DNA from: Chloroflexota bacterium
GTDB taxonomy: Bacteria; Chloroflexota; UBA6077; FW602-bin22; JACPRP01
DNA length: 64,000 nucleotides
Reading direction: 5' to 3'
Assembly: GCA_023480885.1 (NCBI GenBank)
Contig: JAMCWX010000068.1
Span: 1-64,000 of the forward strand
In this document: positions 20,879-23,559 of the stretch, piece after piece
Position numbering within the stretch: position 1 is the first letter of the stretch
How the letters are laid out: the number at the start of each line of letters is the position of its first letter
Position numbers and translations under genes: made by a program
Notes under the pieces: model-generated
Database searches by the model: none
What the model saw: only the letters and a program-made list of their open reading frames with translations
Told to the model about the DNA's origin: nothing

Positions 20879-20906
20879 CCGAACGATTTGTACGCGGAGG
20901 TTCGGG

Positions 20907-22559
20907 GTGATTCGAGACGAAATCGCTCGGTTGGTCAGAGAAGCAGCACGGCGAGCGCAAGCTAAAGGGACGCTTCCGCCGGTCGCAATCACCGAAGTTG
21001 CGCTGGAACGCCCTCAGAAGCCGGAATACGGCGATTACGCCAGCACTCTGCCTCTCAAGCTGGCCCGAGCGGCGCGGATGAGCCCAATGGCTATCGGCAA
21101 AGCCATCGCCGACGAGTTGCCGCTGGTCGACGCCATCGGGAAAATCGAGACTGCTCCTCCCGGATTCATCAATATCACTTTGAATGAGAAATGGCTGGCA
21201 GAGCAGGTCGACGCTATCATCTCCGCTGAGCAGGATTTCGGCAATCTGGACCTGGGCAGAGGCGAGAGGTTGCAGATCGAGTTTGTCAGCGCCAATCCTA
21301 CAGGGCCGCTGACCGCGGCCAGTGGACGCGGCGGCGCGCTCGGCGATACGCTGGGGAACGTGCTCTCAGCATCTGGCTACAAGGTCGAGCGAGAATACTA
21401 CGTTAACGACGCTGGTAGCCGAATGGAGGCATTTTACCAGACCGTGTACGCCCGCTACGCCCAAGCTCTCGGGGTAGCGGAAGAAGTGCCACCTGAAGGC
21501 TACCACGGCACCTACGTTTCCGACCTGGCGAGTGAGACAGTTCAGGAACACGGCGACAAGTTCTTGAAGATGCCCCGCCAGCAAGCGATCGACGCGCTCG
21601 GCAAGATCGCGATCGAGAAAATGATCCAGGCAGCGCAAAGAGACCTGGCCGATATGGGAGTTCGCTACGACTGCTGGTTCAGCGAGCAGAGCCTTTACGA
21701 TGCGAGCCTGGTCAAGAAGACGCTGGAGATTCTGAGCGAGCGCGGATTTACGGACGAGCGTGAGGGTGCCGTCTGGTTCACTTCGACGTCTCTGGGAGAG
21801 GATAAAGACAATGTGCTTGTTCGCAGCAACGGGGTGCCCACCTATTTCGCCTCGGACGTTGCGTATCATTACGATAAGTTCTTCGTTCGAGCCTTCGATC
21901 GGGTGATCGACGTGCTGGGAGCTGACCACCAGGGACACGTCCCGCGGATGAAAGCCGCGATTGCGGCCCTGGGCGCAGATCCGAACCGCCTCCAGACGAT
22001 CGTGCACCAGATGATAACTTTGCGGCGCTGCCGTCTCGATCTGCGCATGTCCAAGCGCACGGGAGACATCGTTTCGCTGAGGGAAGTGCTGGACGAGGTC
22101 GGCGCCGACGCTTGCCGCTTCTTCTTCCTGTCAAGGTCAGCCGACAGTCAGATGGACTTCGACCTGGAACTGGCCAAGCGGCAATCGAACGAGAACCCGG
22201 TTTACTACGTGCAGTACGCGCACGCGCGCATTGCGAGCATTTTGCGCTATGCTGGCGACGTGGAGTTCGCGCAGGGCAACGTCGACCTTTTGCGCACCGA
22301 ACCCGAGCAGACGCTCATCAGAAAGATGCTCCAGTTCCCTGAGTTGATCGAGACGGCAGCGACGCAGCTCGAGCCGCACCACCTGACCTATTACGCTCAA
22401 GATATAGCCGCAGTCTTCCACTCATTCTACAAGCAGTGCCGCGTCGTCTCCGACGACGTTGAGCTAACCAGGGCACGCCTGAAGCTCGTGCAAGCGGCGA
22501 AGATCGTGCTGGCGAAAACGCTTCGGCTGATGGGTGTGGCAGCCCCCGAACAAATGTGA
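20907..22559 (+). CDS. argS: Arginyl-tRNA synthetase
   Basis: A 550-residue class I synthetase charging tRNA-Arg. It has the N-terminal Add1 domain (about 1-85), a catalytic core starting at FVSANPTGPL near 126-135, EYYVNDAG near 160, the KMSKS-equivalent MSKRTGD, and a C-terminal DALR anticodon-binding domain ending LMGVAAPEQM. GTG 20907 has GGAGG six bases upstream. Oddly, the HIGH signature that should follow NPTGPL (usually HVGH/HIGN) reads TAAS at residues 136-139, so both histidine positions are lost while everything around is normal. trpS follows 16 bases later. Confidence 0.94.
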   Translation: MIRDEIARLVREAARRAQAKGTLPPVAITEVALERPQKPEYGDYASTLPLKLARAARMSPMAIGKAIADELPLVDAIGKIETAPPGFINITLNEKWLAEQVDAIISAEQDFGNLDLGRGERLQIEFVSANPTGPLTAASGRGGALGDTLGNVLSASGYKVEREYYVNDAGSRMEAFYQTVYARYAQALGVAEEVPPEGYHGTYVSDLASETVQEHGDKFLKMPRQQAIDALGKIAIEKMIQAAQRDLADMGVRYDCWFSEQSLYDASLVKKTLEILSERGFTDEREGAVWFTSTSLGEDKDNVLVRSNGVPTYFASDVAYHYDKFFVRAFDRVIDVLGADHQGHVPRMKAAIAALGADPNRLQTIVHQMITLRRCRLDLRMSKRTGDIVSLREVLDEVGADACRFFFLSRSADSQMDFDLELAKRQSNENPVYYVQYAHARIASILRYAGDVEFAQGNVDLLRTEPEQTLIRKMLQFPELIETAATQLEPHHLTYYAQDIAAVFHSFYKQCRVVSDDVELTRARLKLVQAAKIVLAKTLRLMGVAAPEQM

Positions 22560-22575: not shown

Positions 22576-23559
22576 ATGAAGAAGAGAGTCTTCAGTGGCG
22601 CAAGACCCACTGGCAAGCAACATATCGGCAATTATATCGGCGCGATTCAGAACTACGTCAGGCTCCAGGAGGACGAAGAGTTCGATTACCGCATTTACTG
22701 CGTCGTCGATCTGCACGCGCTGATCAGTTTGCAAGAGACAGAGAATCTTCATCAAAACGCTTACGAAATGGTGCTGGATTGGCTCGCGGCGGGGATGGAT
22801 CCCAAGAAGAGCATAATCTTCCCGCAGTCGCGCGTGCCTGAGGTATCGGAGCTTCACGTCATCCTGTCCATGATTACGCCGCTCGGCAGGCTATACCGCG
22901 TTCCGACCTTCAAGGAGAAGGTGCGCCAGCAACCCGATAACGTGAACTATGGGCTGCTCGGCTATCCCGTTTTGATGACTGGCGACATTATCCTCTACAA
23001 GGCAGACACTGTGCCAGTGGGAGAGGATCAGGCGCCGCATCTGGAACTGGCGCGCGAGATAGTGAGGCGCTTCAACAACATTTTCGGCGAGACCTTCCCC
23101 GAACCGTTCGTGAGGCTGACGTCGTTTCCCAGGGTGCTGGGCATCGACGGCGTGCAGAAGATGAGCAAATCGCTGAACAACCACATCGAGCTTTCCGCCC
23201 CGGCGAAGGAGGTGGAACGCCGCGTGAAGTCGATGGTGACGGACCAGGCACGCGTCTACCGCACCGATCCGGGCCATCCAGAGATTTGCAACGTCTTCTC
23301 ACTGCACAAGTTCTACTCGCCAGACCGTCTGGAGGAGATCGCAGTTGATTGTCGAGGGGCAAAGATCGGCTGCGTGGACTGCAAGATGATGCTGGCAAAC
23401 AACCTGAACAAAGCTCTCGATCCCTTCCGAGAAAGAAGGGCGCAGTTCGCCACCGACCCGAACCTGGTGTGGGATATCCTGGAAGACGGCACGAAGCGCG
23501 CGCGGGCAATCGCTTCACAGACGATGGCTAAGGTGCGGCAGAAGGTCGGCTTAGCCTAG
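22576..23559 (+). CDS. trpS: Tryptophanyl-tRNA synthetase
   Basis: A 327-residue class Ic synthetase. The HIGH motif is PTGKQHIGNY at residues 11-20 and KMSKS is at 195-199; GEDQAPHLELAREI (about 149-162) is the Trp/ATP-pocket signature. Length and motifs are typical. It attaches tryptophan to tRNA-Trp. It is cotranscribed with argS (16-base gap). The last nine bases overlap the convergent frameshifted PHP gene on the other strand. No T-box leader is present because it follows argS directly. Confidence 0.96.
   Translation: MKKRVFSGARPTGKQHIGNYIGAIQNYVRLQEDEEFDYRIYCVVDLHALISLQETENLHQNAYEMVLDWLAAGMDPKKSIIFPQSRVPEVSELHVILSMITPLGRLYRVPTFKEKVRQQPDNVNYGLLGYPVLMTGDIILYKADTVPVGEDQAPHLELAREIVRRFNNIFGETFPEPFVRLTSFPRVLGIDGVQKMSKSLNNHIELSAPAKEVERRVKSMVTDQARVYRTDPGHPEICNVFSLHKFYSPDRLEEIAVDCRGAKIGCVDCKMMLANNLNKALDPFRERRAQFATDPNLVWDILEDGTKRARAIASQTMAKVRQKVGLA

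Follow-up and report, generated by a model that had tools for sequence, protein, structure and literature searches.

The arginyl-tRNA synthetase (ArgRS) encoded in the window, as we call the whole 64,000-nucleotide stretch analysed (contig JAMCWX010000068.1 of the Chloroflexota assembly GCA_023480885.1), lacks the HIGH motif, with which class I synthetases handle ATP. HIGH is one of two signatures by which this class is defined, and ideas on the origin of the class build on it. We consider it probable that the organism has no ArgRS but this one, that the protein is the ortholog of the usual housekeeping enzyme, and that it is catalytically active without the histidines and glycine of HIGH, the activity being deduced from the presence of a sole argS, purifying selection on the altered motif and a canonical structural model. 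A textbook catalytic motif seems to be replaceable in nature. Our search of the literature, which covered subscription papers only partly, turned up no description of a HIGH-less ArgRS.

The argS gene of the window and its product

Translation of the gene (Table 1) bears out the earlier note, which had reported that HIGH is absent and that TAASGRGG occupies residues 136-143 after NPTGPL: the region reads ...SANPTGPL-TAAS-GRGG-ALGD..., with neither the histidines nor the glycine of H-x-G-H. The PROSITE form of the HIGH signature is H/T-x-G-H/N/T/G, from which TAAS departs in having no glycine at position 3 and a serine at position 4. The second signature, the KMSKS-type motif, is present as RMSKR. 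The product scores 420 bits against the family model TIGR00456 (cut-off 261.65; residues 28-550 covered) and carries the N-terminal Arg_tRNA_synt_N (PF03485), class I catalytic tRNA-synt_1d (PF00750) and DALR_1 (PF05746) domains, a combination of score and domains that places it in the arginyl-tRNA synthetase family. Against the model of NrtL, an ArgS-related anticodon-binding protein (NF045898), it reached 143.4 bits, under the cut-off of 340.

Table 1. Coordinates of argS, its motifs and its neighbour within the window
Feature	Position	Strand	Remarks
argS, arginyl-tRNA synthetase without HIGH motif	20907..22559	+	550 aa, GTG start
GGAGG, ribosome-binding-site-like, just 5' of the argS GTG	20896..20900	+	sequence reading
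NPTGPL at residues 130-135, of normal sequence, just ahead of the HIGH site	21294..21311	+	
TAAS, residues 136-139, where H-x-G-H is expected	21312..21323	+	
GRGG, residues 140-143	21324..21335	+	R141 invariant; G143 instead of the usual alanine
His367, strand preceding the KMSKS-type loop	22005..22007	+	
CRLDL, residues 375-379, unlike relatives	22029..22043	+	apparently slid in frame locally
RMSKR, residues 380-384, KMSKS-type motif	22044..22058	+	kept
trpS, downstream of argS, HIGN and KMSKS present	22576..23559	+	start 16 nt past the argS stop

The note's further remark that the enzyme appears intact elsewhere is borne out for MSKR, though not quite for the loop just before it, where CRLDL stands against G-x-E-I-V in five relatives. 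When the DNA of this segment is slid by one base, 6-7 of 12 positions match the relatives, compared with 1-3 of 12 in the unslid reading, and a local frame slip, either real or introduced by the assembly, is therefore a possible reading of these few codons.

The placement of argS beside trpS, also noted before, is correct, the two genes lying on the same strand. This order and orientation recur in all 39 loci listed of the 43 that hold both genes (duplicates included), among them HxGH relatives and distant relatives, with a gap of 5 to about 2000 bases; since the synteny is kept across relatives, the window gene is best regarded as the ortholog of ordinary ArgRS. The genome carries at least three tRNA-Arg genes (anticodons TCG, GCG and CCG, found in the 30 of 40 tRNA matches scanned), all three with C35-G36 in the anticodon and G-G-A in the D-loop.

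Variation of HIGH in the order and across Chloroflexota

Alignment with relatives settles whether the altered motif is a lineage norm: it is, since in the order to which the window organism belongs 11 of 13 genomes have an ArgRS from which the first histidine, the glycine and the last histidine (H1, G3 and H4) are all missing. Judging from the sequences, this norm is itself unusual, the whole order and several other lineages having dropped the motif. The HIGH-less versions within the order are TAAS, TAAF, TVAF, PVAS, PVAA and TAVA, with small or hydroxyl residues as replacements (T/P at position 1, A/V at 2, A/V at 3 and S/F/A at 4), and the two exceptions have HAGS (G008) and HVGG (G005). The closest comparison is an ArgRS from another genus of the same family (L003), 79% identical to the window enzyme, which likewise has TAASGRGG, encoded by different codons. 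All 11 HIGH-less enzymes of the order have glycine at residue 143, where 90 of 92 HxGH enzymes have alanine, and all 11 have histidine at residue 367, found in 6 of 92 HxGH enzymes.

Across Chloroflexota, to which the sample was confined, ArgRS matches were obtained in 223 of 400 genomes, the stronger being listed; from these, 80 regions and other loci returned by the searches were taken, giving 247 loci, 201 non-identical proteins and, after leaving out five fragments or near-duplicates (L031, L136, L109, L146 and L148), 196 aligned rows. Position 1 of the motif is H in 131 rows and otherwise T (53), L (5), P (4) or Q (3), 65 rows in all; position 3 is G in 166 and A (24), S (5) or V (1) in the remaining 30; and position 4 is H in 104, N in 31, A in 25, S in 23, T in 6, G in 3, F in 2 and R in 2. 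H1, G3 and H4 are jointly missing in 19 of the 196 rows, 11 from the window's order and 8 from families f35, f41, f80 and f90. A separate pattern search matched 23 of 400 genomes, 15 within argS and 8 outside it.

The motif is thus highly plastic, and other positions are near-invariant. R141, the sixth position counted from the start of the motif, is the same in all 196 rows, as are E125, S128, N130, P131, E163, Y313, D317, Y320 and R328, and T132 is found in 195 of 196, R384 in 195 and K383, the KMSK lysine, in 181. This lysine is kept in all 92 full H-x-G-H enzymes and gone in 15 of the 104 others, including 5 of the 19 that have none of H1, G3 and H4; its loss is thus confined to enzymes whose HIGH is already degraded, in few lineages, so that the counts are not independent events. 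In the f41/f51 clade, neither the lysine of KMSK nor the D-H in the GADH segment is left in six of nine rows: five from f41 (L147, L239, L244, L247 and L254) also lack HIGH, and L241 of f51 lacks the HIGH glycine and last histidine. The open frames of f41 are mostly 966-1024 codons long, perhaps through extension or fusion. Family f29 (L231, L234, L236, L246 and L253) shows another path of loss, with LFSH for HIGH and, alongside it, RMSRR for KMSKR.

When the motif columns are left out and a 70-row LG+C20 tree is built from the others, positions 1, 3 and 4 require a minimum of 13, 9 and 4 changes, respectively, between canonical and non-canonical states, which argues that HIGH was lost repeatedly. 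A 196-row FastTree, which gave a warning of joined long branches, presents a similar picture; both trees are unrooted, and the direction from H to T at position 1 is accordingly the one we infer.

Structure, selection and competing explanations

The AlphaFold model of the window ArgRS, which is ligand-free, has a mean pLDDT of 95.1 and a pTM of 0.92, with a strand (residues 121-129) and a helix (137-155) flanking the motif as expected and with dips in pLDDT to 75 for residues 371-380 and 72 for 381-390. Its best 15 matches in the PDB are all ArgRS, headed by 3fnr (Z 41.7, rmsd 2.1 over 446 residues) and with 2zue, which has a bound ATP analogue, in sixth place; ArgRS, CysRS and MetRS structures head the match list, in keeping with a Rossmann-type class I catalytic fold. 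The predicted fold of the enzyme is a canonical ArgRS fold, which by itself is no proof of activity. No clear compensating residue for the loss of HIGH was found among the aligned columns, two of which change along with it: 143, where A gives way to G, and 367, where S gives way to H/Y. An independent-pair test gave 0.7 for and 0.1 against for position 3 versus column 143 (position 8), and 2.1 for and 0 against for position 4 versus 367, each over only five pairs, and we treat A143 to G and histidine at 367 as leads only, which may reflect shared descent.

In the active enzyme that we favour, the backbone amides at the N-terminus of helix alpha-1 would still face the ATP phosphates, the hydroxyls of Thr136 and Ser139, where present, might add weak hydrogen bonds, and most of the stabilisation of the phosphates and the transition state would come from the MSKR loop (Lys383) and from Ser128, Asn130, Arg141 and other invariant residues. 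Arginine activation by ArgRS requires bound tRNA, and for this reason we propose that the tRNA-bound closed conformation would also help to stabilise the transition state. For the alanine at position 3, room is probably made by a slight displacement of the helix tip, G143 easing the packing, comparable to the helix-tip shift that permits GXHH in IleRS2. Counting against an active enzyme, besides the want of a clear compensating residue, is the roughly 1000-fold cost of mutating the first histidine in several class I enzymes given in PMC10485003, where this histidine is described as stabilising the transition state and the glycine as leaving room for the adenine.

A bolder extension of the same idea, which we hold tentatively and at somewhat less than even chances, is that class I adenylate formation can proceed with no catalytic HIGH side chain at all. 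The PVAA enzymes offer none, and their motif is devoid of polar side chains, which means that not every member of the group can depend on the hydroxyls; the six f41/f51 rows would in addition do without the KMSK lysine and the GADH D-H. Backbone amides, other invariant residues and bound tRNA would then carry the catalysis on ATP.

Between the window argS and L003, the codons of residues 136-143 differ only synonymously (pN 0, pS 0.93), compared with a pN of 0.015 and pS of 0.88 in the 30 codons around the motif and a pN of 0.147 and pS of 0.70 in the catalytic domain, which argues that the odd motif is being maintained and is not decaying. Over nine close pairs, comprising six HIGH-less, one HAAS and two HxGH pairs, the motif pN is without exception smaller than the catalytic-domain pN, and it is 0 in six (three of the HIGH-less pairs, the HAAS pair and both HxGH pairs). 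By these codon comparisons, the altered motif is kept by strong purifying selection in the window lineage. They bear directly on a rather unlikely alternative, namely that slow growers tolerate a slower ArgRS, HIGH having eroded nearly neutrally to leave residues under structural constraint only. Such erosion would fit the repeated, stepwise-looking series HxG[SATGN], TxG[NASH], TxA[NAS] and PxAS, and the restriction of lysine loss to already degraded enzymes, but it sits poorly with a motif that is, in close pairs, nearly as frozen as canonical HxGH.

A different driving force, and the sole point of departure from the explanation that we prefer, would be a natural ArgRS inhibitor mimicking arginyl-adenylate, under which the motif of the same active enzyme changed; we regard this as unlikely. 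The analogy is with IleRS2, whose GXHH swap is linked in PMC10485003 to mupirocin hyper-resistance at a mild catalytic cost. The IleRS of the window genome (L258, G000:C6:1309-3174) itself has GIHH, a motif of the IleRS2 type, as 27 of the 28 IleRS copies read in the class, which come from 26 of its 29 genomes, have G/AxHH, HIGH being found only in G008, and the ArgRS motif has been altered many times. Two genomes, G010 and G011, have two G/AxHH IleRS genes each. Against the proposal, a natural ArgRS inhibitor acting at the HIGH site is hypothetical, the many motif states do not converge on one bulky blocking residue, and five other synthetases of the window genome, named by appearance after a PF00133 search, retain HxGH or HxGN (ValRS-like HYGH, LeuRS HIGH, MetRS HVGH, CysRS HIGH and TrpRS HIGN).

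The earlier note had offered a choice between a functional enzyme with a different arrangement and the existence of a second ArgRS. The first stands, by inference from the three lines of evidence given at the outset, and the second finds no support here: the 3.09-Mb assembly, of 88.66% completeness, yielded no further argS to a search with TIGR00456, a model that gave matches in all 14 control genomes, some of them archaeal. The window ArgRS thus appears to be the organism's only one in the assembly, a completeness of 88.66% leaving slight room for another. Every one of the order's 13 genomes contains exactly one argS, and four of these genomes are 95-96% complete; of the 29 genomes in the class, 26 carry a single argS, two carry none and one, G020, carries an argS split into three (L031, G020:C74:61742-63280) with two internal TGA codons, a broken gene or a product of assembly errors. 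Where the motif is altered in other lineages, one argS per genome exceeds the cut-off in 33 of 34 genomes, the gene being in pieces in G156 and in G371. The only two-argS genome among these 34 is G287 of family f80, with loci at C2:24689-26383 and C2:1839437-1841056 (L212), one of which has TIAS and a KMSK-like RMKKT. This pairing of a TIAS argS with another over the cut-off is what could be said for a non-canonical role of the window protein, with a second ArgRS charging tRNA, but the single copies elsewhere and the conserved synteny of argS make such a role highly improbable.

An artefact of sequencing, assembly or local frame at the motif can be practically dismissed: although a slid reading of the DNA around it gives H-x-G-H-like residues, other genera and families show the same or like residues in different codons, which rules out a compensated frame shift at TAAS.

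Relation to known systems

Natural full-length HIGH-less enzymes, encoded by an essential gene present once, allow a direct test of what HIGH contributes, and they would let two further matters be probed: whether HIGH and KMSKS are coupled, given that only enzymes with a degraded HIGH lack the lysine, and the protection that altered motifs may afford against adenylate-mimic inhibitors. Annotation based on motifs would wrongly label such ArgRS inactive.

With the canonical bacterial ArgRS (TIGR00456; compared through 3fnr from Campylobacter, 2zue from Pyrococcus and 1bs2/1f7u from yeast), the window enzyme shares domain order, fold, invariant positions and an MSKR-type loop, and it is 34% identical to 3fnr; the three aligned canonical enzymes have H-x-G-H, whereas the window ArgRS has T-A-A-S, with no histidine and no glycine. 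The TrpRS-type motif, TxGN, shares the threonine at position 1 with the window ArgRS but retains glycine at position 3 and asparagine at position 4.

The closest precedent is the GXHH IleRS2, in which, according to Brkic et al. (2023, PMC10485003), a natural, clade-wide class I enzyme is likewise altered at positions 1 and 3 of HIGH. IleRS2 is a functional enzyme, whereas the activity of the window ArgRS is deduced; moreover, in IleRS2 a histidine has moved to position 3 and taken over the role, with the fourth position kept, while the motif of the window ArgRS is free of histidine throughout, alanine and serine standing where the G/AXHH pattern has its two histidines. A further likeness is provided by the AVGA mutant of the LeuRS urzyme LeuAC, which, according to PMC10450160, retains catalysis without the two histidines; that construct is a laboratory fragment of 129 residues, and the full-length LeuRS shows cooperation between the two motifs, the mutant there performing worse. 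Together, the GXHH IleRS2 and the AVGA urzyme indicate that HIGH is not sacrosanct, and, if adenylate formation with no HIGH side chain proves true, the ArgRS described here would be the natural full-length counterpart of the urzyme result that HIGH is dispensable.
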